In this document: piece by piece, positions 2,049 to 51,962 of the stretch
Position numbering within the stretch: position 1 is the first letter of the stretch
Layout of the letters: the number at the start of each line of letters is the position of its first letter
The notes under the pieces: model-generated
What the model was told of the DNA's origin: nothing
The model's input: only the letters and a program-made list of their open reading frames with translations
Database searches by the model: none
Translations under genes and position numbers: made by a program
IMG/VR virus record: IMGVR_UViG_3300027747_002198
Span: 1 to 64,000 of that record
Direction: 5' to 3' (one strand)
DNA from: a virus
DNA: 64,000 bases

Positions 2049-2090
2049 CCCACCATGCCTCTTAATAATGCACACTTTGGTGGGTTTTTT
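2049..2090 (+). terminator. Rho-independent terminator after gp32
   Basis: CCCACCA (2049-2055) pairs with TGGTGGG (2078-2084), with a possible inner TGC/GCA pair in the 22-base loop, followed by TTTTTTATT. It lies between gp32 and the end of the convergent minus-strand operon. The T-run is on the plus side only, so it serves gp32 and not the minus-strand genes. Confidence 0.85.
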
Positions 2091-30636: not shown

Positions 30637-30870
30637 ATGCCAAATGTTACTGTCACTCCATCTCAATCTATCAACGTTAGAGTAGGACCTTCATCAAATC
30701 CAACTGTTCCGGCCATCAACTATGGCGGTGCGGGCGCACAATTAAGAAACTTACTTGATGTTGATGCTAGAGATTTGCAAGACGGATATGGTATAATTTA
30801 TTCGGCCGCTACGGATAAATTTATTGTACAACAAACAGTAACTTTTAATGTTGATGGAGGTACATATTAA
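30637..30870 (+). CDS. Small fibre-adjacent protein
   Basis: 77 residues. The N-terminal half is beta (VTVTPSQSINVRVGP). The second half has LRNLLDVDARDLQDGYGIIY and ATDKFIV, a short motif that usually occurs inside phage fibre proteins. Its stop overlaps the next start (TAATG), so the two are coupled. It may be a detached fibre segment or an attachment subunit. Unassigned. Confidence 0.75.
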   Translation: MPNVTVTPSQSINVRVGPSSNPTVPAINYGGAGAQLRNLLDVDARDLQDGYGIIYSAATDKFIVQQTVTFNVDGGTY

Positions 30871-32483: not shown

Positions 32484-32486
32484 AAA

Positions 32487-32831
32487 ATGGCAGCACAATC
32501 AATTCCATTAAATACGTTTAAAACAACAACCGCAACATTAACAACTAATTTTCAAACAATATATACTACACCTACTGGTGTAACTACTGTCGTTTTGTTG
32601 GCACAAGTTTCAAATATAGATTCAGCAAATACTATTCAAGCTTCTGCTTATTTTGTAAGAGGTGGCGTTAACACTTCAATTATTCAAGGAACTATTATTC
32701 CAACAAATGACGCAGCAACACTATTAACAGGCAAATTAATTTTACAAACAGGCGATTCATTTACTGCCAATTGTAGTATAAGTGGTTCTGGACAATTAAT
32801 TTTGTCATATTTAGAAACAGCAAATCAATAA
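32487..32831 (+). CDS. Small beta-sandwich virion protein
   Basis: 114 residues with TTLTTNFQTIYTTPTGVTTV-like beta strands and IIPTNDAATLLTGKLILQTG, ending LILSYLETAN. The pattern of trimeric-knob-like head or fibre accessory proteins fits, but no family can be named. It is three bases after the beta-helix gene and seven before the giant fibre. Confidence 0.75.
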   Translation: MAAQSIPLNTFKTTTATLTTNFQTIYTTPTGVTTVVLLAQVSNIDSANTIQASAYFVRGGVNTSIIQGTIIPTNDAATLLTGKLILQTGDSFTANCSISGSGQLILSYLETANQ

Positions 32832-32837
32832 TAAAAT

Positions 32838-35800
32838 ATGACCAATAGAACTAGGCTAGTTAGCGGTCGTGTACCCACAAGTAATTCCGCTAACGTATCA
32901 CTCTCACGTTACCAATTTTTAGATTTAAGTTCTGCGGAACCTAATCTAGGTACGGCCAATAACGGAGATGTTTTAAGTTACAATACAGCAAGTCCTGGTG
33001 GCCGGCAATGGATTCCTCAAAGTTATTTGGGTGGGTTAGGACTTGCTCAGCAAGCATACAATCAAGCTAACTCCGCTAATATTTTGGCACAATCTGCATA
33101 TACTCAATCCAATGTAGCATATAATCTTGCCAGTTATGCCTCCAATACTGCTAATAATGCGTTGCCAAATACTGGTCCTTTAATCACAGTAAATTCTACA
33201 TCAAGATTATATGTTTCTAATACAACAACAAGTACAAGTAATACTACAGGTGCTTTAACTGTTGCTGGTGGTGTTGGTATTTCTGGTAATTTATTTGTTG
33301 GTGGCACAAATATTACAATAGGTGAAGGACCTGGAAATGCAACAGTTAATATTGCATCAGGTGGATTAACAGGTAATACTATTGTAGTTAACATTGGAAC
33401 TCCAACTGCAGCATATCAATATCCAATAACGTACACTAATATTTTTGGAGGAGCAACTGTTGGGGGTAACCTCACAGTTCAAGGTGGATATAATCAAATT
33501 GGTAATGGTAATTATACCACCTATGTGTATTTGGGTAATGGTTATTCATTAGCAGGTGTTATTAAAACTGTTGAAATTGGTACGAATGCTTTTATTGGTT
33601 CAAATACTAATATAGCAATTGGTACATCAGGCGGTGGAAATACAACAGTAAAATTTGGTAGTAACACAATTACCAATTTTACAAATACGGCCATATCAAC
33701 ATCGAATACCACTGGTGCTTTAACTGTTGCTGGTGGTATTGGTGTAAAAGGTAATGTGTATGCTGATGCTGTTTACTCCAATAATGCTTTAGTTCTAACT
33801 TCTGAACCTATTGGTATTTCTGCTGCATCAAATACAGTTTATATTAAAGCTGGTTTAGATTCAGCTAACGCCAATATTGCTTTGTTACAAGCATCATTAG
33901 GTACCAGTAATGCTAATATTACATATATTCTTGGTATTGATGCAACTCAAAATTCTTGGATTATATCTGCTAATGCAAACTCTGCTTTAGCATTTTCTTA
34001 TATCAATTCAGCCAATGCTAACATTGCGTTACTCCAATCAGGTTTAATTACGGCTAATGCCAACGGTGTTGCTACCGATGGTAAAATGCAATCTGCTTAT
34101 AATCAAGCTAACGTAACTGCTGGTGGTTTAATAACGGCTAATGCTAATACAGTATACACACAAGCAGGTTTAAATACTGCAAACGGAAATATAAGTGCTT
34201 TACAAGGTGGTTTGATTGCAGCCAATGCCAATAGTTTTTACATACAATCTGGCCTCAATACCGCCAATGCCAACATATCAATTATTCAAGGTGTAGACTT
34301 AACACAGAACACTTGGATTACCAATACCGATGGTAAAATGCAATCTGCTTATAATCAAGCTAATATAACCGCTGGTGGCTTGATAACTGCTAATGCTAAT
34401 ACAGTTTATATTAAAGCAGGACTTGATAGTGCTAATGCCAATATTGGTATTTTATTTGGTATTGAAACAACACAAAATACAAATATTACATACACCGATG
34501 CTAAGATGCAATCGGCATATAACCAAGCCAACGTTACTGCTGGTGGCTTAATAACTGCTAATGCCAATACAGTCTATACGCAAGCAGGACTTAATACTGC
34601 CAATGGTAACATAAGTGCATTACAAGGCGGATTAATTGCAGCCAACGCTAACTCAGCATACATTTTAGCAGGATTAATATCGGCTAATGCAAACACAGCA
34701 ATCATTCAAGGTGTTGACTTAACACAAAACACTTGGATTACCAATACAGATGGCAAGATGCAATCGGCTTATAATCAAGCAAACGTAACTGCTGGTGGCT
34801 TGATAACTGCTAATGCTAATACAGTTTATACGCAAGCAGGTTTAAATTCAGCCAATGCTAGAATAACAATTATTGAAGGTGTGGATGCGACTCAAAACAC
34901 CAACATCTCCAATAAAGTAAATTTAACTGGATCATTAAATCAAACAATTTCTGGAAATGTGACCATCACACAAGATTTAGTTGTTTCAGGTAATTTAGTC
35001 CTCACAGGAAATATTTCATCACAAAACGTACAACAGTTAGCCGTAGCTGACCCGTTAATATTATTAGGTCTTGGTAACTATGTTAGCGATACCAAAGATA
35101 TTGGTTTTGCTGGACATTATAACGATGGTACCAATGCTCACGCTGGTTTGATTAGAGATTCTGGAACAAAAGAATTTTATTTATTCAAAGGTTACACACC
35201 AGAAGTAGATTCGAACAATAACATTGATATTACAGACGCATCATTTAGTAAAGCAAACTTAAACGCTAGTTATTTTAAAGGTAATTTAATTGTTACAACA
35301 GCAGTTGTTAATGGTATTGATATTTACACTTATTCAACTTCTGCTTGGACACAAGCCAATGTAACTGCTGGTGGTTTAATAACGGCCAATGGCAATATAT
35401 CTGCATTACAAGGTGGTTTGATTAGTGCAAATGCTAATTCATTTTATATTCAATCTGGATTAAATTCAGCAAATGCCAACATAGCTTTGTTACAAACAGG
35501 ACTTATAACTGCTAACGCAAATGGTGTTGCTACTGATGGTAAAATGCAGTCTGCCTATAATCAAGCAAACGTGGTTGCTGGTGGTTTGATAACGGCTAAT
35601 GCTAACACAGTTTACATTAAAGCAGGACTTGATAGTGCCAATGCTAATATTGCTTTGTTACAAGCAGGATTAGGTACCAGTAATGCCAACATTGCATATA
35701 TTCTTGGTATTGATGCAACTCAAAATTCTTGGATTATATCTGGAAACGCAAATTCAGCTCTAGCGTTTTCTTATATTAATTCTGCTAACGCCAATATAGC

Positions 35801-37544
35801 TTTACTTCAATCTGGACTTAATACTGCTAATGCAAACATAGCTTATATTCTTGGTGTTGACTTAACTCAGAATACTTGGATTACCAATACTGATGGTAAA
35901 ATGCAATCTGCTTACAATCAAGCAAACGTGGTTGCTGGAGGATTGATTACTGCTAATGCTAATACAGTTTATATTAAAGCTGGGTTAGATTCAGCCAATG
36001 CTAATATTGCTTTGTTGCAAGCAGGATTAGGTACCAGTAATGCCAACATTGCATATATTCTTGGTATTGATGCAACTCAAAATTCTTGGATTATATCTGG
36101 AAACGCAAATTCAGCTCTAGCGTTTTCTTATATCAATTCAGCGAATGCTAACATTTCTATTTTGTTTGGCATTGAAACAACTCAGAATACTTGGATTACT
36201 AATACTGATGGTAAGATGCAGTCTGCCTATAATCAGGCTAATGCGACCGCCGGTGGTTTAATAACTGCTAATGCTAATATTGTATCAACAGACGGTAAGA
36301 TGCAGTCGGCTTATAACCAAGCCAACGTAACTGCTGGTGGTTTAATTACCGCTAACGCTAATAGTTTCTATATTCAGTCTGGATTAAATTCAGCAAATGC
36401 CAACATAGCTTTGTTACAAGCAGGACTTATAACTGCTAATGCTAATATTGTATCAACAGATGGTAAAATGCAATCAGCTTATAACCAAGCCAATGTTACC
36501 GCTGGTGGACTTATAACGGCTAATGCTAATACAGTTTATATTCAGTCTGGATTAAATTCAGCCAATGCCAATATATCATATCTTTTTGGTGTAAATTTAA
36601 CACAAAATACTTGGATTACCAATACTGATGGTTTGACACAATCGGCATATGCTCAAGCAAATGCTATTAGTTCTTATGCAAACACCACACTAAGTTATTT
36701 AAGTGGAGCTTTAATTACTACTAATGCTAATACAGTTTATATTCAATCTGGATTAAATTCAGCTAATGCCAATATTGTTTCATTACAAGCATTGGCGAAT
36801 ACAGATTATACAACTGTAACATCTCCGACAGGAACATTTGGTAGTGCAACATTAGTTCCTGTAGTTACTGTTGCTGCTAACGGTCGTATTACTAATATCA
36901 GCACAACAACAATCACCGGTGGTGGTGCCGGTGCTAACACAAATAGTTTTTCTACTATCGTTGTTTCTGGTCAACCAAGAGTAATAGCAAATAGTACTTC
37001 TTCACCATTAACATTTGTTGCTGGTACTGGAATGACTATTACTACTGTTGGCACCAGTAACACAATTACTTTTGTTTCAACGGGAGGATTTAGTGGCGGT
37101 ACAATTCCTAATCCTTTGAACATCACAAGTACATTAGTGAGTACAAATACCACCACGGGTGCTTTAGTAGTTACTGGTGGTGTTGGTATTGGTGGCGCAC
37201 TAAATGCTACATCAAAATCATTTAATATTCCACATCCAACAAAACCAGGAAAAGATTTACGTTATGGATCGTTAGAAGGTCCCGAGTTTGGTGTGTATGT
37301 TCGTGGAAAATTGGTTAATAATAACACAATTGAATTGCCTGAATATTGGACAAAATTGGTTCATAAAGATAGCATAACTGTTCAATTAACTCCTATTGGT
37401 AAATTTCAAAAACTTTCTGTTAAAGAAATTAAAGATAACAGGATTACTATTGGTAATGATGCCTTATTAAGTAATGATATTAATTGTTTTTATATTGTGT
37501 TTGCAGAAAGAGCAGATATAGATAAGCTTGAAGTGGAAAGTTAA
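32838..37544 (+). CDS. Giant repeat fibre (AYNQAN/ANAN repeats)
   Basis: 1568 residues. The middle is built from a degenerate repeat: DGKMQSAYNQANVTAGGLIT, then ANANTVYIKAGLDSANANIA, then LFG/ILG-type segments ending TQNTWI. SAYNQAN occurs at least nine times. Modules of the form NTTGALTVAGGVGISGN sit near the ends. The shaft is probably a long triple helix or beta fibre. The C-terminal ~115 residues (SFNIPHPTKPGKDLRYGSLE, GPEFGVYVRGKL, ELPEYWTKLVHKDSITVQLT) form a distinct cap I recognise from cyanophage-type fibres. Likely a long tail fibre. The S74 domain is absent. Confidence 0.85.
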   Translation: MTNRTRLVSGRVPTSNSANVSLSRYQFLDLSSAEPNLGTANNGDVLSYNTASPGGRQWIPQSYLGGLGLAQQAYNQANSANILAQSAYTQSNVAYNLASYASNTANNALPNTGPLITVNSTSRLYVSNTTTSTSNTTGALTVAGGVGISGNLFVGGTNITIGEGPGNATVNIASGGLTGNTIVVNIGTPTAAYQYPITYTNIFGGATVGGNLTVQGGYNQIGNGNYTTYVYLGNGYSLAGVIKTVEIGTNAFIGSNTNIAIGTSGGGNTTVKFGSNTITNFTNTAISTSNTTGALTVAGGIGVKGNVYADAVYSNNALVLTSEPIGISAASNTVYIKAGLDSANANIALLQASLGTSNANITYILGIDATQNSWIISANANSALAFSYINSANANIALLQSGLITANANGVATDGKMQSAYNQANVTAGGLITANANTVYTQAGLNTANGNISALQGGLIAANANSFYIQSGLNTANANISIIQGVDLTQNTWITNTDGKMQSAYNQANITAGGLITANANTVYIKAGLDSANANIGILFGIETTQNTNITYTDAKMQSAYNQANVTAGGLITANANTVYTQAGLNTANGNISALQGGLIAANANSAYILAGLISANANTAIIQGVDLTQNTWITNTDGKMQSAYNQANVTAGGLITANANTVYTQAGLNSANARITIIEGVDATQNTNISNKVNLTGSLNQTISGNVTITQDLVVSGNLVLTGNISSQNVQQLAVADPLILLGLGNYVSDTKDIGFAGHYNDGTNAHAGLIRDSGTKEFYLFKGYTPEVDSNNNIDITDASFSKANLNASYFKGNLIVTTAVVNGIDIYTYSTSAWTQANVTAGGLITANGNISALQGGLISANANSFYIQSGLNSANANIALLQTGLITANANGVATDGKMQSAYNQANVVAGGLITANANTVYIKAGLDSANANIALLQAGLGTSNANIAYILGIDATQNSWIISGNANSALAFSYINSANANIALLQSGLNTANANIAYILGVDLTQNTWITNTDGKMQSAYNQANVVAGGLITANANTVYIKAGLDSANANIALLQAGLGTSNANIAYILGIDATQNSWIISGNANSALAFSYINSANANISILFGIETTQNTWITNTDGKMQSAYNQANATAGGLITANANIVSTDGKMQSAYNQANVTAGGLITANANSFYIQSGLNSANANIALLQAGLITANANIVSTDGKMQSAYNQANVTAGGLITANANTVYIQSGLNSANANISYLFGVNLTQNTWITNTDGLTQSAYAQANAISSYANTTLSYLSGALITTNANTVYIQSGLNSANANIVSLQALANTDYTTVTSPTGTFGSATLVPVVTVAANGRITNISTTTITGGGAGANTNSFSTIVVSGQPRVIANSTSSPLTFVAGTGMTITTVGTSNTITFVSTGGFSGGTIPNPLNITSTLVSTNTTTGALVVTGGVGIGGALNATSKSFNIPHPTKPGKDLRYGSLEGPEFGVYVRGKLVNNNTIELPEYWTKLVHKDSITVQLTPIGKFQKLSVKEIKDNRITIGNDALLSNDINCFYIVFAERADIDKLEVES
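35661..36133 (+). repeat. Identical 116-base direct repeat inside the giant fibre
   Basis: The 116 bases at 35661-35776 reappear unchanged at 36018-36133, an offset of 357 bases (119 codons), so the frame is kept. Flanking repeat units have diverged, which points to recent in-frame duplication or gene conversion between fibre repeats. Confidence 0.85.
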
Positions 37545-37546
37545 TT

Positions 37547-38617
37547 ATGGGTGTCAATTATAATTATAGCACTATAATGAATGGATTAACAGTTTGTATT
37601 GATGCCAACAATCCAAAAAGTTATTCTGGCTCAGGCAATACTTGGATTGATTTGATTAATAAAAACGCCAATTTTAATCTAGCAAATACTCCACCATATA
37701 CTCCGGCAAATACAACCAATGGAGCTCCAGCATATTTTAGTTTTTCAAATGTTGATGTTACTGGTGCAAACACGTTAACGTATGCAACTACCGGTAATAC
37801 AATTTGGCGTGGCACTGGATTGGATTATAATTTAAATATTGGAAAAATTGGAAGTACAAATTGCACCATAGAAATTGTTTGGCGACTTACTGCTTATCCG
37901 GCACCTGGCGGTACATTTTATATGATTGATGCAACAACTGCCGGTGATGGACTTCAATTAGTTTTTAGTAATACTGGAACTACTTACCAATATGGTAATT
38001 GGCGCTGGGCAAATGGTGGTGGAATAATTAATTATTATAGTAATTCTAATCCAACGGCTTTGGTACCTTTAGGTGTTTGGCGCCACGACATACTATCGTA
38101 TAGCCTTGAGAATGGAAGTACTTGGCGAATCAATGGAGGAAATAACAATTTATCAAATAAAGTTTTAGATCGTGGTACTGTTGTTTCAGCAACTGGCGGA
38201 AATTCTGGTGTTGCCAATACTATAACATTGCCGGCCAATTTTTCATCCGCCAATACTGATTATGTGAATGATTATGTTTCTATTCTTACAGGAACAGGAT
38301 ATGGAGATGTTATCCAAATTACTGCTTATGATGGTGTAGCCAAAATTGCCACGGTTTCTCGTAACTGGAAATATGGAACACCGGATACAACTTCAACATT
38401 TCAAATTTGTGTTCCGGGTACATCCGTAAACGTAGGGCGAAACAATAGTAGGTTTGCAGCTATTGGTACACAAGCGGTAGCAAGATATCAAGATCAATTC
38501 ATTGGTGATATTGCTCTAGTGCGTATGTGGAATCGTGAGTTAACCGACTTTGAAGCAAAAACGAGTTACAATATTTTAAACAAAAAATTTAATTTTGGTT
38601 CTAACGTTACTTTCTAA
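37547..38617 (+). CDS. LamG-like (concanavalin A-like) lectin protein 1
   Basis: 356 residues. The start (NGLTVCIDANNPKSYSGSGN, then TWIDL) and the end (GDIALVRMWNRELTDFEAKT) are the standard edges of phage LamG-type jelly rolls, which bind carbohydrates. A TKVATV-like module (38165-38410: ANTITLPANFSSANTDYVND, AYDGVAKIATVSRNW) is inserted near the middle, splitting the domain. It is two bases from a second lectin gene. Probably a receptor-binding virion protein; no sugar specificity can be read. Confidence 0.82.
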   Translation: MGVNYNYSTIMNGLTVCIDANNPKSYSGSGNTWIDLINKNANFNLANTPPYTPANTTNGAPAYFSFSNVDVTGANTLTYATTGNTIWRGTGLDYNLNIGKIGSTNCTIEIVWRLTAYPAPGGTFYMIDATTAGDGLQLVFSNTGTTYQYGNWRWANGGGIINYYSNSNPTALVPLGVWRHDILSYSLENGSTWRINGGNNNLSNKVLDRGTVVSATGGNSGVANTITLPANFSSANTDYVNDYVSILTGTGYGDVIQITAYDGVAKIATVSRNWKYGTPDTTSTFQICVPGTSVNVGRNNSRFAAIGTQAVARYQDQFIGDIALVRMWNRELTDFEAKTSYNILNKKFNFGSNVTF

Positions 38618-38619
38618 AA

Positions 38620-39375
38620 ATGTCTTTAACGCACTCTCCCACCCTCGCAAATACTGGATTAGTAATTTGTTTTGATCCTGGAAATAATAGGAGCTTTATT
38701 CCGGCCACAAGTACAACTACATGGATTAATATAGTTAATCCATTTCAAACAATTAATGTTGGTAATAATATTTCTGCTGATTTAAGATTAATTAGTAACA
38801 ATTGTTATCTAAGTGCAAATAGCGGAGGAACATTTGTTTTTGCAAATAACCAAATTACAGGCGTTAATCAGTACATTACTACTACAGGAATTCCCGATTC
38901 TTTTTGGCAAGGCAGTTATACAATATCCGCTTGGGCATATTTTAATCAAGTGAATAAAATTGGACGCACACCAACTGGAGGAAACGATTGGCCAAATACT
39001 TTAATTGCTCACGGGCAAGGTGTTACTGATTCAAGTTTTTCTATTGGCGAAAGATTTGGAAAATTAAATTTTGGATTTTATAATGATGATTTTAATAGTG
39101 CAACCACACTTTTACCGAACACTTGGTATAATTTAGTTGGTACTTATGATTCTTCTACATCCACAAGAACAATGTACATTAATACAATTTATGATAGCTC
39201 AAAATCTGGAGGTGCTTATATTGGTACAGGAAATAATACTATAATAGCCTCCGGTACAAATTCATATTATCAATTGTATGGAAATCTTGGTAGAATTGAT
39301 ATATACAATCGAGTGTTAACGCCAACAGAAATCCAAAGATATTACTTGACAAACAAAAGTAAATATGGATTATAA
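38620..39375 (+). CDS. LamG-like (concanavalin A-like) lectin protein 2
   Basis: 251 residues. It has the same frame as the preceding protein: NTGLVICFDPGNNRSFIP at the start, YTISAWAYFNQV near the middle, WYNLVGTYDSSTSTRTMYIN, and GRIDIYNRVLTPTEIQRYYL at the end. This is a complete LamG domain without the inserted module. It is distantly related to its neighbour, so the pair may be an old duplication. A role in host-surface glycan binding is likely. Confidence 0.85.
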   Translation: MSLTHSPTLANTGLVICFDPGNNRSFIPATSTTTWINIVNPFQTINVGNNISADLRLISNNCYLSANSGGTFVFANNQITGVNQYITTTGIPDSFWQGSYTISAWAYFNQVNKIGRTPTGGNDWPNTLIAHGQGVTDSSFSIGERFGKLNFGFYNDDFNSATTLLPNTWYNLVGTYDSSTSTRTMYINTIYDSSKSGGAYIGTGNNTIIASGTNSYYQLYGNLGRIDIYNRVLTPTEIQRYYLTNKSKYGL

Positions 39376-39381
39376 AAAAAT

Positions 39382-39663
39382 ATGCAAAACCCTACAACTT
39401 TAATTTTTGATATTTCTGAATTAGATAAAATTGATTCAACTAAAATTCTTTGGCAAAACATTAGTAATGATAATACTCAAGTAATGATTGCTTGGGAAGG
39501 TGACACACCGGACTTTGTTAACAATTTAACAACTAAAGGTGATTTTTTATCTTATGATGAAGCCACCACATTTGTTCAACAAAATTTTCACAATTGGGTA
39601 AAAATGCAAACCGCAACCGCAATAAGAAATGAAGATGGTAGTATCACTTATACTGACGAATAA
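39382..39663 (+). CDS. Small protein next to fibre genes
   Basis: 93 residues. NPTTLIFDISELDKIDSTKI, QVMIAWEGDTPDFV and EATTFVQQNFHNW resemble small proteins found beside T4-like fibre genes. It is acidic and probably a compact alpha/beta fold. A chaperone or adaptor for the neighbouring fibres is possible, with no direct evidence. Its stop codon lies inside the next late promoter. Confidence 0.7.
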   Translation: MQNPTTLIFDISELDKIDSTKILWQNISNDNTQVMIAWEGDTPDFVNNLTTKGDFLSYDEATTFVQQNFHNWVKMQTATAIRNEDGSITYTDE

Positions 39664-39666
39664 ATA
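39659..39666 (+). promoter_or_regulatory. T4-type late promoter -10 (AATAAATA)
   Basis: It overlaps the TAA of the preceding gene and stands 28 bases ahead of the PA14 fibre start, the usual late-promoter distance. It would drive the PA14 fibre and the three propeller genes. Confidence 0.5.
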
Positions 39667-39694
39667 CCACAGTACAACACAAGAATAGTAAAAA

Positions 39695-42600
39695 ATGGCA
39701 TATACCGATAAGAATATAGTAATTACACCCAATTCAGGATCGTCCACCGATGATCCTAAGATTGTTTTTACTTCAGCCAATAACACTATTGGTCCTCAGA
39801 GTATTACGCTTAGGACTTATCCTACGTCTAATGGGCTACTATCTTTTGAAAGTTCTGTTGGCCAATTATTCTCCATTAGTAATACCCTCACAGGTACCCT
39901 TTTCTCAGTTAATGATATTTCTGGTATTCCTAGTATTACGGTACAAGATACTGGTCAAGTTAACTTATCACCATATAACGGTAACGTTATTATTGGCACA
40001 GCAACGACCAATACTTCACCAGCAACCGCTAGCGCCCTTTTAGTTGTAAACGGCATGCATTATGCCGACCAAGAAATTGTGGCCAATAACGGCGTTATAG
40101 TTAGAAATGATAATAGAGATTTTACTGGTCTACAATCAAAAGTGGTGTGGCGTAAATATTCAACTTCTGGTTATGTATCAGTAAACTCAGAAGAAATGAC
40201 GGCCAATATTGCTGCGGCTTCATTAGTATCATCAGGAACATTTACTGCGGTTCAACAAAATATTGCAACTGGTTTTGGTAGCAATTATCTTATGGAAGTT
40301 GCTGGTTATTTTTACGCCAATACGGCAGGTGTTTATTCTTTTGGTGTTAACTCAGACGATAACTCAGATTTATTTGTTGATGGCAAACTAGTTGCAGATT
40401 GGTTCACATCAGGTGGTCACGGCGCAGCCGCATCGGGTACTCCTGGTGGCACACAAAGAACTGTTTATTTACAAAAAGGTTTTCATAGAATTTATGGAAG
40501 ATTAGTTCAAGGTGGTGTTGGTGAATCTTTAGAATGGTTATTTAAAAATCCTGGTGATACTAATTTTACTGTAATACCGGCAGGATTATTATACCACCAG
40601 GCAACCGATTCAATAATAGCCACGGCAAACGGAATTAGTATTACAGGCTTTGCTATGTCCAATGTTATAGCCGGTAACGTTTTGACTTCTAATGTGTTAA
40701 CAAATGGAGCAGAATTAACTCTTGGTGTATCTAGTGATACCTGGGGTCCAATATCTTTAAGATTACAAAATAGAGATAACCAAAACGGACCTTTATTTGA
40801 TGCTTCACAGAGTAGAGTAGCATTACTTGATTTTGGATTTAAAACGGCAACAGCACAAAAAAATATTCGATATGAAACTAGACCAACATATTCTATTATA
40901 CCTAATCAAACTACAGTAAATGAATTTCAAATTGGTGTACCAGGTAGTGCAGATTTAGCTATTGGAAATACTTCTGTTTATGTAAGACCAAGTACAGGAA
41001 GTACTCCTTCTACCAATACAACTTCGGGTGCTTTAATCGTTGCTGGTGGTGCAGGTATTTCTGGTAACATATATACTGCTGGTGTATACATTGTAGGTTC
41101 AAGCAATGGCGTAACTTTTGGTGATGGTACAATACAAACCACTGCGGTGTTAATTGACCAAACGGCAAGAAATTTAGCAAATACCACTGCTGGCGGTTTA
41201 ATAACTGCTAATGCAAATTCATTTTATATTAAAGCAGGATTGAATTCAGCCAATGCTAATATTATTTCTTTACAAACAAAAGCAAATACTTTATTACCAA
41301 ATATTGGTTCAGTAATTACAATAAATTCGGCATCACAATTATATGTTTCTAATAATCAACCAGGATTATCTTCTGCCGTAGGAGCCTTAACGGTTATGGG
41401 TGGAATTGGTGCGCAAGATAACGTATGGATTGATGGTAATTTGTCTATTACTAATCCTATTCCATTAATACAATTTACCGGATCAAATAGTTACGTTGCA
41501 TATACAGGTACAAATAATTTAACTTCTTGGGATCAAACACCAGTTCGTTATACGTTTACCAGTGATAATGCTCCACAAGGAATAACATTTAAACCTGACG
41601 GTACTGTAATATACATTGTTGGTACTACTGCACCACAAAGGGTGTATCAATTAAGATTGAATAGTGCATGGGATCAAAGCACTGCAATTAATACGGCAGC
41701 TTTTTCAGTTGCAACTCAAGATACTTCACCACAAGATATTTGGTTTAAACCTGATGGTTCAGAAATGTATATTTTGGGTAACACCAATAAAAGAGTATGG
41801 CAATACCATTTAAATACACCATGGGATATTAATACCGCCTCATTTATTGTAAACTCAAACACCGCTAACGGATTATTACAAACACAAGATTCAACTGTGA
41901 CGGGTTTGACATTTAAACCTGACGGCACTCAAATGTACGTTAACGGTTCAAGTAACAATGCAGTGTATCAGTATACATTAAGTACTCCTTGGAGTGTGAA
42001 CACCGCAACATACACAACAAACACACAGGTTGCCGGCATAACAAGTACCGCTTTTTCTACAGTAGCAGGAACATCTGTTGCTCATGCTTTTAATACTGAT
42101 GGTACCAGAATGTTTGTTGCTGGTACTGCTTATAGAGATATTGCTGAATTCAATTTAAATACCGCATGGAACGTAGCAACATCAAGTTACAGAACAAGAA
42201 GGAACGTTTATTGGGAAGATACCGGTATATCTGGAATGTATTATACCGATACGGCAAATTCTTTGTATACAATTGGTACTGCAACCAGAATAATATTTCA
42301 ATATACAACAAATAGTACTGCAGCAGAAACTATAGCCGATAATACGGTGTTAACCGGTAACACAACGGCTAACGGTTCTTTGTTTGTTGCTGGTAACTTT
42401 AAAGCCGATGGTAATGCTCTTTTTCCATTATCGTTAACAGCATTCACAACATCAGTTACCGGTACATTGACGGCTAGTGGTACATTAACGGCTACCGGTG
42501 CACTTGGTTTAAACGGCTCTGCAACTGGTGGTGTGAACCTCGGCACTTTAGTAACAACTGGTAACTTTACTGTTGGTACTACGTTGACAACAGGAACTTT

Positions 42601-43183
42601 CCTTTATGGTGGTGTATCACAAACCGGTAACACAGTATTTGGAAGATCAACACTTACAAGTAACCTTGAAATTGCTAACGGTATAGTAATTGCCGGTAGT
42701 ACCAAAACTGTTGGTATAGGAAACTACGGTACTACAGGATCATCCACAGTTATTAACATTGGTGTTGGTTCTTTAGGTAACACAACAATTAACTTTGGTG
42801 GTAATACTAATCCGGGTAATACAGTAGTTAACTTTGGCCAAAATACGGTAGTATATACAAACTCAGTATATGCAACAACAACTACGGGTGCAATCTATAC
42901 AGATAACTTGAGATATGCTTCTAACGGAACTCCATGGGTAATGGGTTCTGGTGGCGGTAGTTCTGTATCTACATATAGCACAACGATTGGTGACGGAACA
43001 AATACCAAGTATCAAGTGTTACATAATTTAGGAAAATCTAATATTATTACAACTGTTCGTGAAACAACTTCAGGTAACGTAGTGTATCCTTCTTTACAAT
43101 ATGCAAATACTAACCAAATGAACGTGAGTTTTGTTTCTGCTCCAGCATCAAGTTTCTATACAGTTTCAATAATAGGATTCTAA
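39695..43183 (+). CDS. Large fibre with PA14 domain and propeller-like repeats
   Basis: 1162 residues. After an N-terminal beta region, residues about 145-310 form a PA14 carbohydrate-binding domain (AGYFYANTAGVYSFGVNSDD, SDLFVDGKLV, GFHRIYGRLVQGGVGESLEW). A shaft with NTTSGALIVAGGAGISGN and ANAN motifs follows. Residues about 625-880 hold four or more repeats of the type ITFKPDGTxxYIxG...VYQxxLxxPWD, resembling bacterial propeller repeats. The C-terminus has YQVLHNLGKSNIITTVRETT. Several adhesion folds in one chain suggest a receptor-binding fibre. Confidence 0.85.
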   Translation: MAYTDKNIVITPNSGSSTDDPKIVFTSANNTIGPQSITLRTYPTSNGLLSFESSVGQLFSISNTLTGTLFSVNDISGIPSITVQDTGQVNLSPYNGNVIIGTATTNTSPATASALLVVNGMHYADQEIVANNGVIVRNDNRDFTGLQSKVVWRKYSTSGYVSVNSEEMTANIAAASLVSSGTFTAVQQNIATGFGSNYLMEVAGYFYANTAGVYSFGVNSDDNSDLFVDGKLVADWFTSGGHGAAASGTPGGTQRTVYLQKGFHRIYGRLVQGGVGESLEWLFKNPGDTNFTVIPAGLLYHQATDSIIATANGISITGFAMSNVIAGNVLTSNVLTNGAELTLGVSSDTWGPISLRLQNRDNQNGPLFDASQSRVALLDFGFKTATAQKNIRYETRPTYSIIPNQTTVNEFQIGVPGSADLAIGNTSVYVRPSTGSTPSTNTTSGALIVAGGAGISGNIYTAGVYIVGSSNGVTFGDGTIQTTAVLIDQTARNLANTTAGGLITANANSFYIKAGLNSANANIISLQTKANTLLPNIGSVITINSASQLYVSNNQPGLSSAVGALTVMGGIGAQDNVWIDGNLSITNPIPLIQFTGSNSYVAYTGTNNLTSWDQTPVRYTFTSDNAPQGITFKPDGTVIYIVGTTAPQRVYQLRLNSAWDQSTAINTAAFSVATQDTSPQDIWFKPDGSEMYILGNTNKRVWQYHLNTPWDINTASFIVNSNTANGLLQTQDSTVTGLTFKPDGTQMYVNGSSNNAVYQYTLSTPWSVNTATYTTNTQVAGITSTAFSTVAGTSVAHAFNTDGTRMFVAGTAYRDIAEFNLNTAWNVATSSYRTRRNVYWEDTGISGMYYTDTANSLYTIGTATRIIFQYTTNSTAAETIADNTVLTGNTTANGSLFVAGNFKADGNALFPLSLTAFTTSVTGTLTASGTLTATGALGLNGSATGGVNLGTLVTTGNFTVGTTLTTGTFLYGGVSQTGNTVFGRSTLTSNLEIANGIVIAGSTKTVGIGNYGTTGSSTVINIGVGSLGNTTINFGGNTNPGNTVVNFGQNTVVYTNSVYATTTTGAIYTDNLRYASNGTPWVMGSGGGSSVSTYSTTIGDGTNTKYQVLHNLGKSNIITTVRETTSGNVVYPSLQYANTNQMNVSFVSAPASSFYTVSIIGF

Positions 43184-43184
43184 G

Positions 43185-44324
43185 ATGGCCAATACTTGGA
43201 TTATATCTCCAGATTGGCAAAACGAAATTACTGCTACAGTATACGGACAATTACCGGCGGCAGATAACAGTTCTATTGATACTGCAAACGTTGCCTTCTC
43301 ACAGTTACAAACTTTATTGAATAGAAGTGTTACTGCAAACACCACATTTTCTAACGGAATTGTATCAACTTATTCATTGGTGTATACTACTACTGGTGCA
43401 TATTCTGGTGGAGTCTTAGCGCCCAATGGCGATATACATTTTGTTCCATTTGCAGCTGCCAGAGGACAAAAAATATCAGCTGCTGGAGTAGTATCAACAT
43501 ATTCGCTAGTGTATACTGCTACTAGTGGTGCATATAGTGGTGGAGTCCTAGCACCTAATGGTGATATTCATTTTATACCAAGAAGTGCCGCAGTAGGTCA
43601 AAAAATATCAGCTGCTGGTGTAGTATCAACTTATTCATTAGTATATACAACATCTTCTGCTTATATTGGTGGAGTCCTAGCACCTAATGGAGATATACAT
43701 TTTATTCCAGCTAGTGCCAATAGAGGTCAAAAGATATCAGCTGCTGGAGTAGTATCAACATATTCATTGGTGTATACCACCAGTGGTGCATATTATGGTG
43801 GAGTATTAGCACCTAATGGTGACATACATTTTATTCTAGCTAGTGCCAATAGAGGTCAAAAGATATCATCTGCTGGTGTAGTATCAACTTATTCATTGGT
43901 GTACACCACCAGTGGTGGTGCATATTATGGTGGAGTATTAGCACCTAATGGTGACATACATTTTATTCCAAATGCTGCTAGCGTAGGACAAAAAATATCA
44001 GCTGCTGGAGTAGTATCAACATATTCATTAGTAAATACTGATACAAATGGTGCATATCAAGGTGGTGTATTAGCACCTAATGGTGATATTCATTTTGTTA
44101 TAGATGCTGCTAGTAAAGGTCAAAAAATATCATCTACAGGTACGGTGTCTACTTATTCTTTGGCGTATACTGTTGATAGTGCATATTATGGTGGAGTCCT
44201 GGCACCCAATGGAGATATACATTTCGTTCCATATGCTGCCTCAGTAGGCCAAGTTATTGTCACCGGTGCCGCACTGCCTTGGGATATTGGCACTTGTTGT
44301 TCACCATTTTTTAATAAGTTTTAA
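43185..44324 (+). CDS. Seven-repeat beta-propeller protein, paralogue 1
   Basis: 379 residues. After a ~55-residue N-cap come exactly seven repeats of about 43 residues with the core AAGVVSTYSLVYT, GGVLAPNGDIHF and GQKI. The C-cap ends GTCCSPFFNKF. Seven repeats and a KIS strand supplied after the last blade fit a closed seven-bladed propeller. Core residues are nearly constant. Differences cluster after VYT and between IHF and GQ, both expected to be loops. It is followed three bases later by a paralogue. Probably a surface or fibre-tip adhesin; enzymatic use is not suggested. Confidence 0.85.
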   Translation: MANTWIISPDWQNEITATVYGQLPAADNSSIDTANVAFSQLQTLLNRSVTANTTFSNGIVSTYSLVYTTTGAYSGGVLAPNGDIHFVPFAAARGQKISAAGVVSTYSLVYTATSGAYSGGVLAPNGDIHFIPRSAAVGQKISAAGVVSTYSLVYTTSSAYIGGVLAPNGDIHFIPASANRGQKISAAGVVSTYSLVYTTSGAYYGGVLAPNGDIHFILASANRGQKISSAGVVSTYSLVYTTSGGAYYGGVLAPNGDIHFIPNAASVGQKISAAGVVSTYSLVNTDTNGAYQGGVLAPNGDIHFVIDAASKGQKISSTGTVSTYSLAYTVDSAYYGGVLAPNGDIHFVPYAASVGQVIVTGAALPWDIGTCCSPFFNKF

Positions 44325-46515
44325 TTATGCCAACATTTTTAAACGATCCTAATTTTGTATCAGAAACTCAGCAGAGAGCTTGGGGAACACTCATCACAGC
44401 TAATAATAGTTCGATGGCAACTGATAGTTCTTCTTGGTTTTATGGTATGAAAGGATTGATTGATAAAAGCGTTCAAGCAGGTCAAGCATTTAGTAACGGA
44501 ATTGTAAGTACATATTCATTGGTATATACTGCGGCTCCTTCACATTTTGGTGGTGTTTTAGCACCTAATGGAGATATTCATTTTATTCCACAATCTGCTA
44601 CCAGAGGACAAAAAATATCAGCTGCTGGTGTAGTATCAACATATAGTTTGATATATACTGCTGGTAATGCATATCAAGGTGGAGTTTTAGCACCCAATGG
44701 TGACATACATTTTGTTCCATATAGCGGTACTGTTGGACAAAAAATATCAGCTGCTGGTGTAGTATCAACATATTCATTGGTATATACCGGTGGTTCTTAT
44801 AGTGGTGCAGTTTTAGCACCCAATGGTGATATACATTTTGTTCCAACTGGCGCTCCTGTGGGGCAAAAAATATCATCCGCTGGAGTAGTATCAACATATT
44901 CATTGGTATATACTGCTGGTTCATATTATGGCGGAGTTTTAGCACCTAATGGAGATATACATTTTATTAATTTTACTGCTTCTGTAGGACAAAAAATATC
45001 ATCAGCTGGAGTAGTATCAACATATTCATTAATTTCTACTGGAAATAATTTCTATACTGGCGGAGTTTTAGCACCTAATGGAGATATACATTTTATTTCT
45101 TATAATGCTGGACAAGGACAAAAAATATCAGCTGCTGGTGTAGTATCAACTTATTCATTAATCAATGCACCGGGTGCTGGTTATGCTGGTGGAGTCCTAG
45201 CACCTAATGGTGATATTCATTTTGTTCCATTTAGTGCTTCTGTGGGACAAAAAGTATCAACAGCTGGAGTAGTATCAACATATTCATTAGTGTACACAAC
45301 AGCTTTTGCATACGCTGGTGGAGTTTTAGCACCTAATGGTGATATACATTTTATTCTATATAATGCTGCCAGAGGCCAAAAAATTTCCACGCTGCCTGCA
45401 ATACCTTTTAGTTCGGGTGTTTGCTTATCACCATTCTTCAATAAGTTCTAATCATGGCAAATTATTCAATCGATCCCAATTTTGTAACTGAGGTTCAAGG
45501 TACCGCTTGGGGAACTTTACCTCAGGGAGATAATAGTACAATTGATTCTGGTGGAGTTGCGTTTGCAAACTTTCAAGATTTTTTAAATGAAGGTGTGAAT
45601 GGCGGACAACTTTTTAGTAATGCGGTGGTGAGTACATATTCATTGGTGTATACTGCTTCTACTGCATACTTTGGTGGAGTCCTAGCACCTAATGGTGATA
45701 TACATTTCGTTCCGTATGCTGCAACCGTAGGACAAAAAATATCAGCTGCTGGAGTAGTATCAACTTATTCATTGGTGTATACTGCTTCTCCTGCATATGG
45801 CGGTGGTGTTTTATCGCCTAATGGTGATATTCATTTTGTTCCATATTCTGCTAACAGGGGTCAAAAAATATCAGCTGCTGGAGTAGTATCAACTTATTCA
45901 TTGGTGTATACTGCTTCTACTGCATACTTTGGTGGAGTCCTAGCACCTAATGGAGATATTCATTTTATTCCACAAAATGCCAATAAAGGTCAAAAAATAT
46001 CAGCGGCGGGTGTCGTATCAACTTATTCATTGGTGTACACTACTACTAATGCACATGCTGGCGGAGTATTGGCAACCAATGGAGATATTCATTTTATTCC
46101 GTTTGGTGCCAATAGAGGTCAAAAAATATCAGCTGCCGGAGTAGTATCAACATATTCATTGGTATATACTGTTGCTAGTTCATATGGTGGTGGTGTTTTA
46201 GCACCAAACGGTGATATTTATTTTGTTCCTGCTTCCGCTACAGTAGGTCAAAAAATATCAGCTGCTGGTGTAGTATCCACATATTCATTGGTGTATACCA
46301 CTTCATTAGCATATTATGGTGGAGTACTAGCACCAAACGGTGATATTCATTTTGTTCCTTTTAGTGCTCCAGTAGGTCAAAAAATATCAGCTGCTGGAGT
46401 AGTATCAACTTATTCATTGGTGTATACTGCTTCTACTGCATATGTTGGTGGAATTCTAACTCCTAATGGTGATATGTATTTTGTTCCGTATGCGGCTCCA
46501 GTAGGTCAAAAAATA
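43360..46515 (+). repeat. 21 propeller-blade repeats of ~129 bases across three genes
   Basis: Each blade is about 129 bases (43 codons), varying by a few codons in loops. Seven blades lie in each of the three genes. Constant DNA such as aaaatatcagctgctggtgt and gtatcaacttattcattggt alternates with short variable runs, giving ample homology for unequal recombination within and between genes. Confidence 0.9.
44327..45451 (+). CDS. Seven-repeat beta-propeller protein, paralogue 2
   Basis: 374 residues and seven blades, with the same caps (start TFLNDPNFVSETQQRAWGTL; end GVCLSPFFNKF). Loop residues differ from paralogue 1: for example TAAPSHF, TAGNAYQ and TGGSYS after the conserved VYT strand, and QSATR, YSGTV and TGAPV after IHF. 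The framework is unchanged, including GGVLAPNGDIHF in almost every blade. The two-base spacing on both sides implies one transcript and likely equal expression of the three proteins. Confidence 0.85.
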   Translation: MPTFLNDPNFVSETQQRAWGTLITANNSSMATDSSSWFYGMKGLIDKSVQAGQAFSNGIVSTYSLVYTAAPSHFGGVLAPNGDIHFIPQSATRGQKISAAGVVSTYSLIYTAGNAYQGGVLAPNGDIHFVPYSGTVGQKISAAGVVSTYSLVYTGGSYSGAVLAPNGDIHFVPTGAPVGQKISSAGVVSTYSLVYTAGSYYGGVLAPNGDIHFINFTASVGQKISSAGVVSTYSLISTGNNFYTGGVLAPNGDIHFISYNAGQGQKISAAGVVSTYSLINAPGAGYAGGVLAPNGDIHFVPFSASVGQKVSTAGVVSTYSLVYTTAFAYAGGVLAPNGDIHFILYNAARGQKISTLPAIPFSSGVCLSPFFNKF

Positions 46516-46581
46516 ACACTAAATACAGGAGTGAATTTCAGTAAGGGCATTTGTATGCATCCTTATTTTAATAAATTTTAA
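45454..46581 (+). CDS. Seven-repeat beta-propeller protein, paralogue 3
   Basis: 375 residues, seven blades, N-cap SIDPNFVTEVQGTAWGTLPQ, C-cap GICMHPYFNKF. Blades 1 and 3 share an identical 59-base stretch (45637-45695 and 45895-45953; offset 258 bases, exactly two blades), a sign of recent blade copying. Some blades vary the core (GGVLSPNGD, GGVLATNGD, GGILTPNGDMYF). It ends the adhesin run. The next gene, after a 28-base gap with its own ribosome binding site, is a glycosyltransferase-methyltransferase. Confidence 0.85.
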   Translation: MANYSIDPNFVTEVQGTAWGTLPQGDNSTIDSGGVAFANFQDFLNEGVNGGQLFSNAVVSTYSLVYTASTAYFGGVLAPNGDIHFVPYAATVGQKISAAGVVSTYSLVYTASPAYGGGVLSPNGDIHFVPYSANRGQKISAAGVVSTYSLVYTASTAYFGGVLAPNGDIHFIPQNANKGQKISAAGVVSTYSLVYTTTNAHAGGVLATNGDIHFIPFGANRGQKISAAGVVSTYSLVYTVASSYGGGVLAPNGDIYFVPASATVGQKISAAGVVSTYSLVYTTSLAYYGGVLAPNGDIHFVPFSAPVGQKISAAGVVSTYSLVYTASTAYVGGILTPNGDMYFVPYAAPVGQKITLNTGVNFSKGICMHPYFNKF

Positions 46582-46609: not shown

Positions 46610-47956
46610 ATGTATAATCGTGATAAAATTATAGCAACAATGCAAGAAATTTATGATGGTTCCAAATCTATTGCTCCCTATGTTTTAATTGCCCAACCAA
46701 GGCGTGACCTAAACGAAACTCCCGCACAAAATTTTGATGGTTATGATAACCTTCATGTGGATTTACATGGGTTCTCTCACGGTTTCGTGCATATTGGCGG
46801 AGAAAAAGTTGATGTGGCTCGCAATTATTTAATTGAACAAGCATTAGAAAGTGGTGCAAAATATCTTTTGTTTATTGGTGAAGATACTGTTGTACCATAT
46901 GACGCATTTAAAATTCTACACAAGACAGCAGAAGAAAATCCAGGTCAAGTTATTACCGGAGTTTATTATATTAAACTTTCTGATGCAATGATTATGGTTC
47001 GCAATAACGATTGGATTACTATACCAAATGTGGATCCAGGTCAACTACTTGAAGCATGGCAGACCGGTATGGACATTATGTTAATACCAATTGATTTGCT
47101 CCGTCAAATGAAAGAAGAAGAACCAGAACTTCCTTTCTGTTGTATTGGTGTAAACATTAACGATGAAATTCCGTTTATCGGTGAAGATAATTTCTTTGTT
47201 CACCGTCTACACAAAAGAGGCACAAAACTTTTGGTAAACACAGATGTTCAATGTCTACATATGGATTTGGCATCAGGTAAATACACAGCTCATCCTGATG
47301 TTGATTTAAGAAAATACTTTACAACAATTAAACCTACTGAGCGTTTAGTTTTAGAAGATAAAGAATACATTGACCGCAGGTGGTCCGACAGATTACCCGA
47401 AGGTACTGGTGGTTCAAATAGCCTGTTACAAAAGAAAATTGAAGAAGGTAATCCTATTAAATTTAATATGGGTTGTGGTCGTGATAGAATTGATGGTTAC
47501 ATTGGAGTTGATTTACTTGGTGCTGGTGCCGACATCAAACAAGATATTATGGAATTAAAACTACCAGAAAATTGTGCGGATGAAATTTTTGGTTCACATG
47601 TAATTGAACATATTCCACAACATCGTGCAATCGGTGTTTTGACATCATGGTATAATACTCTTAAAGAAGGCGGCAAATTAGTATTAGAACTTCCCAATAT
47701 TGAAGAACTCTTTAAAGATTTTGCCGAAGCCGATGATGCAAAACGATATGAAATAACCCTCTGTGTTTACGGAGCATATCTTGGGGAAATAACGCCAGAA
47801 AGCATTAAACATGGCCAAGAAAGTCCGCATGTTTGGGGTTATTATCCAAAGATATTATCAGAAATTTTAGAGAATATTGGATACAAAGAAATTCAAGTTT
47901 TACCTGTTAAAGGTGTTCATCCAGGTAAAAACTTCAGGATTGAAGCAATTAAATAA
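46610..47956 (+). CDS. Glycosyltransferase-methyltransferase fusion
   Basis: 448 residues. The N-terminal ~240 residues look like a GT-A glycosyltransferase: VDVARNYLIEQALESGAKYL, then LFIGEDTVVPYDAF, where ED occupies the metal-binding position. The C-terminal ~165 residues are a class I SAM-dependent methyltransferase: FNMGCGRDRIDGYIGVDL as the SAM loop, SHVIEHIP, LKEGGKLVLELPN. The two activities in one chain suggest adding and then methylating a sugar. Placement right after the propellers suggests virion proteins or fibres as substrate, but host glycans are an alternative. AAAGGTGG is the ribosome binding site. Confidence 0.82.
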   Translation: MYNRDKIIATMQEIYDGSKSIAPYVLIAQPRRDLNETPAQNFDGYDNLHVDLHGFSHGFVHIGGEKVDVARNYLIEQALESGAKYLLFIGEDTVVPYDAFKILHKTAEENPGQVITGVYYIKLSDAMIMVRNNDWITIPNVDPGQLLEAWQTGMDIMLIPIDLLRQMKEEEPELPFCCIGVNINDEIPFIGEDNFFVHRLHKRGTKLLVNTDVQCLHMDLASGKYTAHPDVDLRKYFTTIKPTERLVLEDKEYIDRRWSDRLPEGTGGSNSLLQKKIEEGNPIKFNMGCGRDRIDGYIGVDLLGAGADIKQDIMELKLPENCADEIFGSHVIEHIPQHRAIGVLTSWYNTLKEGGKLVLELPNIEELFKDFAEADDAKRYEITLCVYGAYLGEITPESIKHGQESPHVWGYYPKILSEILENIGYKEIQVLPVKGVHPGKNFRIEAIK

Positions 47957-47968
47957 TAAGAGGAAAAA

Positions 47969-48409
47969 ATGGCAAGTACAATATCATTAGATGGATTATC
48001 TTCTCCTGATGGAGAAACCAGAGCATTAGCTCACTTAACAGTAGAATACAATGGTAACACATACCAATGGAAATTTTTTATTCCACCAGATTCAGGTGAT
48101 TTAGGAACATTTATAGAAAATAGTAAATCCACAATTGAATCTCAAATTGATGCCAAAGAATCTGCATGGGAAAATTTGAATCCAAAAACAAGAACAATTT
48201 CCGATCCACTAGGAGAAGATGTTGTGGTCGATATTCAAAAAGAAGAAATAGTTCGACCAGACATTCCAGACTATTACGCTTTGAGGAGAAATGCTTATCC
48301 ACCTCTAGCTGAACAGATTGGTGCTTTTTGGAAAGGACCACAGGATCCAGACTATATTGCAATGCAAGCAAAAGTTTTGGCGGTTAAATCGCAATATCCA
48401 AAATCTTAA
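47969..48409 (+). CDS. Probable tail-fibre assembly chaperone-like protein
   Basis: 146 residues. The C-terminal part DYYALRRNAYPPLAEQIGAF, then WKG, is the R-x-x-x-Y-P-x-x-x-E-Q-I-x-x-x-W motif often seen in proteins encoded beside phage fibres. The N-terminal half (VEYNGNTYQWKFFIPPDSGD) is beta. It closes the accessory region, just before the neck operon. An AGAGGAA ribosome binding site precedes it. The motif is recognisable; the chaperone role is inferred. Confidence 0.65.
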   Translation: MASTISLDGLSSPDGETRALAHLTVEYNGNTYQWKFFIPPDSGDLGTFIENSKSTIESQIDAKESAWENLNPKTRTISDPLGEDVVVDIQKEEIVRPDIPDYYALRRNAYPPLAEQIGAFWKGPQDPDYIAMQAKVLAVKSQYPKS

Positions 48410-51206: not shown

Positions 51207-51962
51207 ATGTCAAGAACATTACAATTTAAACGATACGCCAATACAGTCCTTACAAATATAATAGGTGCGGATGGCGAATTAATTATTGACGAAACAAACC
51301 ATTATTTAACTATTCATGACGGAGTAACTCCGGGTGGAGTTACATCACTTGGAGCTCCAGCATCTGTTATTAGTAGTTTAAAAGCCGGAAGCAACACGGT
51401 TACGCTTAGTAATAATGGAAATTTAAATTTATCGAATGGATCGCTTGTTTTTATAGACCAAAGTTTACAAAATACGGCATTTAGTTCTTTTTATATTAAT
51501 GAACTTAATGAATCTGTTGCAAATATTGCAAATTTGCAATATGCTTTTATTGGATCCAATACTAACGTAACACGAGTTGCTAATACTTTAGCAATATCAA
51601 TACAATTAGCTTACAATCAAGCCAATTCGGCCGCCCAGACTATTCCACAAAATCCGCAAACATCAAATTATGTGTTACAAAATTCTGATGCCGGTAAATT
51701 TATTTACTATACCCAATCTGCAAATGCAACATTGTACATACCTTGGACATCAAATACAAATTGGGTAAATGGCACAAGTATTATGATTGTATCTCAAACT
51801 CCGGCAGGAGCTAATGTAAAAATATCTCCAAATAACGGAGTATCATTGTACCTTGCTGGTAATTCTGTAAGTTCTTCACGAAATGTGTCAACTTATGGCA
51901 CCGCTACATTATTAATGGTTAAAGCAAATACATGGTATATTAATGGTACTGGAGTAATATAA
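51207..51962 (+). CDS. Fibre-like protein with attachment-type N-terminus
   Basis: 251 residues. The N-terminal motif GADGELIIDETNHYLTIHDG, followed by VTPGG, is the short beta domain that phages use to mount fibres (Mtd-N-like). A middle section with AYNQANSAAQ is a single copy of the giant-fibre repeat. The C-terminus (NWVNGTSIMIVSQTPAGANV) is a compact beta domain common in T4-like fibre proteins. Probably a small fibre or whisker-like neck appendage, given its place after gp15. It ends with a TAATG overlap into a tiny ORF. Confidence 0.72.
   Translation: MSRTLQFKRYANTVLTNIIGADGELIIDETNHYLTIHDGVTPGGVTSLGAPASVISSLKAGSNTVTLSNNGNLNLSNGSLVFIDQSLQNTAFSSFYINELNESVANIANLQYAFIGSNTNVTRVANTLAISIQLAYNQANSAAQTIPQNPQTSNYVLQNSDAGKFIYYTQSANATLYIPWTSNTNWVNGTSIMIVSQTPAGANVKISPNNGVSLYLAGNSVSSSRNVSTYGTATLLMVKANTWYINGTGVI

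Follow-up and report, generated by a model that had tools for sequence, protein, structure and literature searches.

Phage adhesins are known to vary by point mutation, by tip swapping, by invertible DNA and by retroelements. Propeller domains have been described in several phage receptor-binding proteins, namely Gp45 of the Staphylococcus aureus phage phi11 (five blades), gp131C of PhiKZ (seven blades, with a proposed role) and P2 of PRD1 (PMC4901313), and propellers with near-identical blades have commonly been amplified independently of one another (PMC9218822). In the fungus Podospora anserina, WD40 repeats are swapped within and between the paralogs of the HNWD family (het-d, het-e, het-r), and in each repeat four codons of the interaction face are under positive selection (PMC1805685). 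Here we describe three tandem propeller genes of an uncultured phage, located in a window of 64,000 nucleotides that comprises positions 1-64,000 of the 161,799-base IMG/VR record IMGVR_UViG_3300027747_002198. The three proteins are probably the tail-fibre (adhesin) heads of a T4-like phage, with propellers that turn over by recombination at a fixed blade number. No described phage triplet of such propellers was found in the open-licence literature, and the combination seen at this locus is new: a conserved phage triplet with blades fixed at seven, position-specific ends and scrambled propellers.

The three open reading frames (ORFs) lie on the + strand at 43185-46581, separated by 2-nt gaps. 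Each encodes an N-terminal part of 58-59 residues, seven repeats with a spacing of 42-44 residues (21 repeats in total) and a tail ending in NKF. The Tandem Repeats Finder scores of the three ORFs (794-1042) show that the repeats are no chance pattern. The near-invariant framework columns are V-S-T-Y-S-L, G-G-V-L, P-N-G-D-I-H-F and G-Q-K-I-S. The variable columns of the 21 window blades are 10-12 and 16, which follow VYT, and 31, 32 and 34, which lie between IHF and GQ; in 1071 blades from relatives the entropy exceeds 2.5 bits at the same positions (numbered there 10-12, 15, 30, 31 and 33). Each variable loop also contains conserved anchors, A-Y ahead of GG and an A within the B-C loop, and repeat position 35 is chiefly a binary choice between R and V. 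An earlier reading of this DNA, made without database searches (the sequence-only reading), had reported 21 repeats, seven per gene, with variation in these two stretches and a common NKF C-terminus; mapping of the ORFs and repeats, together with the column variability, confirmed this description.

All three proteins belong to the family PF24684 (Vgb_lyase), with scores of 60.5, 54.7 and 71.7 bits for genes 1-3 against a gathering cut-off of 50, and the only matches of a phmmer search against the PDB were virginiamycin/streptogramin lyases. The gene 3 protein was modelled with AlphaFold using 40 sequences (predicted local distance difference test, pLDDT, 86.7; predicted template modelling score, pTM, 0.86). 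The model contains 28 strands, equal to seven blades, in the order D, (A B C D) x 6, A B C, so that the leading D strand has to complete the blade begun by the final A-B-C (1+3 closure). Closure of the ring by an N-terminal strand is usual for propellers. The best PDB matches of the model in Foldseek were 2qc5 and 2z2p, both Vgb (template modelling score 0.89-0.90 to target, root-mean-square deviation 2.4, about 300 columns), and this superposition indicates a closed ring rather than an open solenoid. Modelling thus supports closed seven-bladed beta-propellers with seven four-stranded blades, as the sequence-only reading had proposed for each gene; the open solenoid that it had named as the contrary outcome was not predicted.

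The high-entropy positions of the propeller fall almost entirely (48 of 55) in D-A or B-C loops or at residue 2 of strand A. We assigned loops to faces from the topology of the up-down meander, in which both these kinds of loop point to one side, giving a single variable face. The modelled propeller accordingly has one hypervariable face of 14 loops (seven D-A and seven B-C) and a conserved opposite face. A scaffold with variable loops is therefore supported, but the ring of seven variable sites on each face that had been envisaged gives way to one face shared by both kinds of loop. Since virginiamycin B lyase is the closest fold and sequence family, the proteins could be thought of as active enzymes, either streptogramin-lyase-like or carbohydrate lyases. 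We regard this as highly improbable. In none of the 1071 blades does a His stand where Vgb has its catalytic H270, at the beginning of strand A, and 1056 of them have Gly there, so that lyase chemistry is not expected and identity as a virginiamycin B lyase was rejected; moreover, the loops of the putative active face are hypervariable, and the NCBIfam score is 77 bits against a cut-off of 600.

A scan of IMG/VR yielded 75 loci, which were reduced to 48 distinct triplets (L-numbered loci) by removing those identical in DNA. Complete runs of three propeller genes were found 65 times, with exceptions mainly at contig ends or where genes were split or broken. The order of three propellers, a glycosyltransferase (or glycosyltransferase/methyltransferase) and a protein of about 146 residues is the rule across relatives, and at loci retrieved via the glycosyltransferase gene the propellers stand directly upstream wherever the contig extends that far. 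Exactly seven blades are present in 184 of 191 full-length ORFs (96%, near-duplicate contigs counted), and four ORFs of one virus type, on two contigs, carry 14-15 blades and are double propellers. At L066:850-5670 (the same virus as L068), genes 1 and 2 are such double propellers, with 15 and 14 blade matches, and gene 3 has 7. The N-terminal part occurs in a short (about 58 residues) and a long (about 144 residues) form, usually with one form across the three genes of a genome. Among cultured phages four records contain propellers of this kind, at no more than 37% identity, and bacterial relatives are 26-36% identical.

The best cross-genome match was at the same gene position for 118 of 123 N-terminal parts, 112 of 123 C-tails and 44 of 123 propellers (about the 1/3 of chance). 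In trees, the N-terminal part required 13 changes of position against 49-69 in within-genome shuffles, and the propeller 54 against 53-71. Orthology follows gene position at both ends of the proteins, whereas the propellers have nearly lost their position identity. The local triplication suggested by the sequence-only reading did not hold up, the triplet being old and near-universal with position-specific ends; its idea of three different products did, as these ends and the near-constant three-gene runs define three distinct conserved proteins.

The contrast between ends and propellers is also seen among close genomes. In 90 gene pairs with an N-terminal DNA identity above 0.85, the mean identity was 0.92 for the N-terminal part, 0.92 for the C-tail and 0.74 for the propeller, and the propeller values were strongly bimodal (17 pairs above 0.9 and 65 below 0.75, most of them 0.65-0.70). 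Where both flanks of two genomes are 90-97% identical in DNA, the propeller is about 67% identical and framework synonymous sites are affected as well; among close relatives the identity of framework synonymous codons drops to about 0.5, as low as between unrelated blades, and loop residues are about 20% identical. Identity profiles of all three genes step down at blade 1 and step up at the tail. The unit of change is the propeller, rather than loops on a fixed framework. The scaffold-plus-loops design proposed earlier therefore stands as regards a constant framework with variable loops and fails as regards the mode of change, since framework synonymous codons are scrambled equally and the ends keep a DNA identity of about 90% or more. 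Misregister or swapped gene order was considered as a source of the low propeller identity, and none of the cyclic shifts and gene pairings, all of which were tried, recovered it.

A phage adhesin whose hypervariable loops sit on a constant scaffold is the classic outcome of a diversity-generating retroelement (DGR), and such an element or another targeted mutator might be supposed to rewrite the loops. It is hardly credible here, given that the scrambling of synonymous framework codons extends over the whole propeller and is not limited to loop codons, and that reverse transcriptase PF00078 was found in 0 of 27 records (the 161.8-kb record of the window and 26 related ones; control genomes were positive, and the records may be incomplete).

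Individual steps of change can be followed in three loci. Between L013 and L035 the glycosyltransferase gene is 100% identical, gene 3 98% and gene 1 92%, and the gene 2 propeller is 79% identical with all seven blades differing; L035 and L019 have gene 2 in common (93%) and differ throughout genes 1 and 3. The three positions thus change independently and within little genome divergence. Metagenome assembly artefact was rejected as the source, since contigs from different metagenomes are protein-identical across the triplet (L004/L005, L015/L016, L019/L032, L034/L038 and L047/L048), and the scrambling is therefore not random chimerism.

Blade pairs of more than 85% DNA identity make up 2.5% of pairs within the same propeller compared with 0.08% in codon shuffles (about 30-fold), and 0.8% of pairs between different propellers of one genome compared with 0.1% (about 8-fold); across genomes such pairs are almost absent except in orthologs. 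Some propellers are internally uniform, with an identity of 0.80-0.89 inside and 0.66-0.71 to their neighbours: L015 gene 3 (0.89 versus 0.71), L051 gene 3 (0.85 versus 0.66) and L013 gene 2 (0.80 versus 0.68), the last being one that changed. The excess of near-identical blades and the internally uniform propellers point to copying and re-amplification of blades within the genome. A clear case of copying between genes is L024, where the blade VSTYSLVYTNASSAYNGGALAPNGDIHFVPYxAAVGQKISASGV is near-identical in genes 1-3, although near-identical blade copies in one contig might in single cases be assembly errors. These pairs, far above the shuffles, and the homogeneity of some changed propellers also speak against ordinary allelic exchange, in which homologous recombination within the conserved ends would bring in whole propellers from other phages and blades would not be copied inside the genome. 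The independent change of each position and the breakpoints near blade 1 and the tail are what such exchange would produce, and phage fibre tips are usually swapped in this way, but no donor of the same propeller was found in two directed IMG/VR scans, and we consider it unlikely as the whole explanation.

Turnover by recombination at a fixed blade number could alternatively reflect concerted evolution under structural constraint only, with repeats recombining as repeats, loops drifting and no selection for receptor variety. Tandem repeats do recombine spontaneously, and single blades give rise to new propellers in many lineages (PMC9218822). However, seven blades in 96% of ORFs and fixed ends indicate an array under strong selection, and the confinement of variability to one face, with conserved anchors among the variable residues, is as expected of a binding surface. 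We rate this explanation as rather improbable, even though the substitution data agree with it: in near-identical pairs, which offer few substitutions, the ratio of nonsynonymous to synonymous polymorphism (pN/pS) was 0.51 for loops, 0.28 for the framework and 0.09 for the N-terminal part.

For the function of the propellers, a receptor-binding adhesin is the best reading, as had been proposed, on the grounds of location, N-terminal relatives and domain grafts. The genes lie in the tail module, between baseplate/fibre genes, with a long fibre/adhesin block at 30870-43183, and neck/tail genes (from 48455). In long-form orthologs, the first 95 residues recur at the start of proteins of unrelated isolates that are annotated as tail fibres or are small tail proteins encoded beside a fibre gene (Roseobacter phage CRP-6, 65%; Methylophilales phage Venkman, 62%; Azospirillum phage Cd gp50). 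Some relatives have a LamG or a second propeller domain grafted into the N-terminal part. The third propeller of L067, L077 and L161 is split into 4+3 blades by inserted sequence and an extra ORF (Table 1); a Gly-rich domain is joined exactly in a D-A loop in the sequences of L067 and L077, with a weak PF21722 match in L067. Since 4+3 equals seven, this is perhaps a two-chain propeller that displays an inserted tip. In the gp38 adhesins of T-even phages, the tip that binds the receptor consists of Gly-rich loops. A gp38 tip is the subject of PMC12892980. The Gly-rich insertion in the D-A loop, seen beside the Gly-rich tips of gp38, suggests that the variable face looks outward. The extra ORF shows sulfotransferase-like-looking motifs and no family match, and no structured intron with an Rfam match was found in the split third gene of L067 or L077.

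Several points weigh against the reading of the window proteins as adhesin heads with propellers in turnover. The closest relative of the window in the collections has 73% identity, so that turnover is deduced from relatives rather than from a close pair; the three window propellers are also unusually alike (0.76-0.80 in DNA within and between), and for the window itself the same process is suggested by this internal likeness and the behaviour of the relatives. We infer, rather than observe, virion location, ligand binding, hetero-assembly, the target of the neighbouring enzyme and selection of the turnover for receptor switching. The 'tail fibre' annotations in isolates were all made by similarity, the short N-terminal part of the window proteins has no known relatives outside the family and no recognisable module, and residues 1-29 of the gene 3 model have a confidence under 50. 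The two directed scans found no donor of changed propellers in other phages beyond the known lineage. Finally, loops evolve faster but with a pN/pS not above 1, and positive selection by point mutation is thus not demonstrated.

A mechanism for the proposed adhesins can be outlined as follows. The first D strand after the N-terminal part would close the seventh blade, and the hypervariable D-A/B-C face would recognise a ligand on the host surface, a glycan being the most plausible one, with the other face constant. Position-specific N-terminal parts and C-tails presumably dock proteins 1, 2 and 3 at their own places in a three-component assembly. Diversity would arise by recombination. Blades would be copied and re-amplified inside one propeller or copied from one of the three paralogs to another, and some may be imported from other phages; propellers would be replaced while selection keeps seven blades and the ends. 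The adjacent glycosyltransferase/methyltransferase may modify the propeller proteins or alter the host receptor. We see the chances as evenly balanced that the locus operates as a diversity generator free of reverse transcriptase, in which 21 interchangeable blades serve as an internal library between fixed docking ends and continually give new receptor-binding faces, in parallel to HNWD.

The gene complement of the record is T4-like (baseplate, sheath, tube, portal and terminase), and the nearest relatives of its portal protein are cyanophage portals (52-56% identity), while the sheath hints at Methylophilales phages as the nearest cultured ones. The features of the locus are listed in Table 1.

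Table 1. Propeller genes, their neighbours in the window, and the split third propeller gene of relatives
Feature	Position	Strand	Description
Propeller gene 1	43185..44324	+	379 aa; N-terminal part 43185-43361, seven-blade propeller 43362-44270, NKF C-tail 44271-44321; PF24684 E 1.5e-16
Propeller gene 2	44327..45451	+	374 aa; N-terminal part 44327-44503, propeller 44504-45394, C-tail 45395-45448; PF24684 E 8.5e-15
Propeller gene 3	45454..46581	+	375 aa; N-terminal part 45454-45627, propeller 45628-46527, C-tail 46528-46578; PF24684 E 5.9e-20; modelled as closed seven-bladed propeller
Glycosyltransferase-like + methyltransferase-like fusion	46610..47956	+	448 aa; PHROG 34859 glycosyltransferase E 1.9e-7; methyltransferase PHROGs/Pfam weak; constant downstream neighbour of triplet
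146-aa protein	47969..48409	+	Usual second downstream neighbour of triplet; C-terminal motif family phrog_2687
1162-aa adhesin-like protein	39695..43183	+	Upstream of triplet; PA14/GLEYA match and second, unrelated propeller-like repeat region (SGL match)
251-aa protein with LamG/ConA-like lectin domain	38620..39375	+	Adhesin-module neighbour; PF13385 E 7.5e-15, PHROG 8510 virion structural protein
Split third propeller gene	L067:8252-10945; L077:8252-10555; L161		N-terminal part + 4 blades + Gly-rich domain, then 161-169 aa ORF, then ORF with 3 blades + NKL tail

One lineage has just the first part, of about 277 residues, of the glycosyltransferase/methyltransferase gene. The ORF at the place of the 1162-residue adhesin-like protein differs in size between relatives; the repeat in this protein is 'FKPDG..MYxxG', and the propeller genes of L045 carry a graft of a similar repeat in their N-terminal part. 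Further upstream (window 32838-37544) lies a fibre-like protein of 1568 residues with 84- and 420-bp tandem repeats (SAYNQANVTAGGLITANAN...) and an end domain common to phrog_17490. Downstream, a protein of 251 residues (51207-51962) weakly matches, at E 1.6e-4 and below cut-off, PF18454, the N-terminal domain of the tropism determinant Mtd. At a distance from the triplet, Rfam abiF RNA RF03085 was matched at 2049-2085 (+) with 44.3 bits (cut-off 37), directly behind the gene of a gp32-like single-strand DNA-binding protein. The match, beside which no Abi protein was recognised, is odd for a T4-like phage and may be a terminator-like hairpin.

Propellers of this kind are present in dozens of uncultured and very few cultured phages, and may thus matter for host range in the sampled environments. 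As their variable and constant positions are known, they also provide a ready-made scaffold for the question of how a propeller face determines specificity. In fold and detectable sequence family they resemble the seven-bladed Vgb (virginiamycin/streptogramin B lyase; PF24684, 2qc5, 2z2p), whose catalytic His 270 sits on the D-A/B-C face, the variable side of the phage propellers; the title of 2z2p refers to the catalytically inactive H270A Vgb. Unlike Vgb, the phage proteins have no catalytic His, and they have near-identical blades, hypervariable loops, an extra N-terminal part, an NKF tail and three tandem genes. With phi11, PhiKZ and PRD1 they would share a propeller domain in a virion adhesin, and the phi11 ring is likewise closed by an N-terminal strand; those adhesins are single genes and are not described as a triplet with near-identical shuffling blades. 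WRAP and other recently amplified propellers have near-identical blades produced by amplification, with a conserved first strand outside the amplified region, and are not described as a conserved phage triplet with position-specific ends in the accessible parts of the two sources (PMC9218822, PMC6805158). Adhesins diversified by DGRs (Mtd, tentaclins) combine a constant scaffold with a variable binding surface as well, whereas in the phage triplet no reverse transcriptase was found in the 27 records and the change extends over the entire domain with its framework codons.

The closest parallel in process is, by analogy, the fungal HNWD family (PMC1805685, PMC2873952). In both systems paralogs exchange near-identical blades, internally as well as with one another, the other parts of the phage genes remaining orthologous, and in both a few variable codons per repeat flank conserved residues of the (here predicted) interaction face. 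HNWD proteins are fungal NOD-like receptor (NLR) recognition receptors with WD40 blades and a varying number of repeats; the phage locus has Vgb-type blades in a number fixed at seven, and positive selection is demonstrated for the former only. If the reading given here is correct, exchange of blades at a fixed number in a conserved three-gene set would be another route of adhesin variation, one that changes binding without a dedicated mutator enzyme and is convergent with a fungal system of self/non-self recognition.

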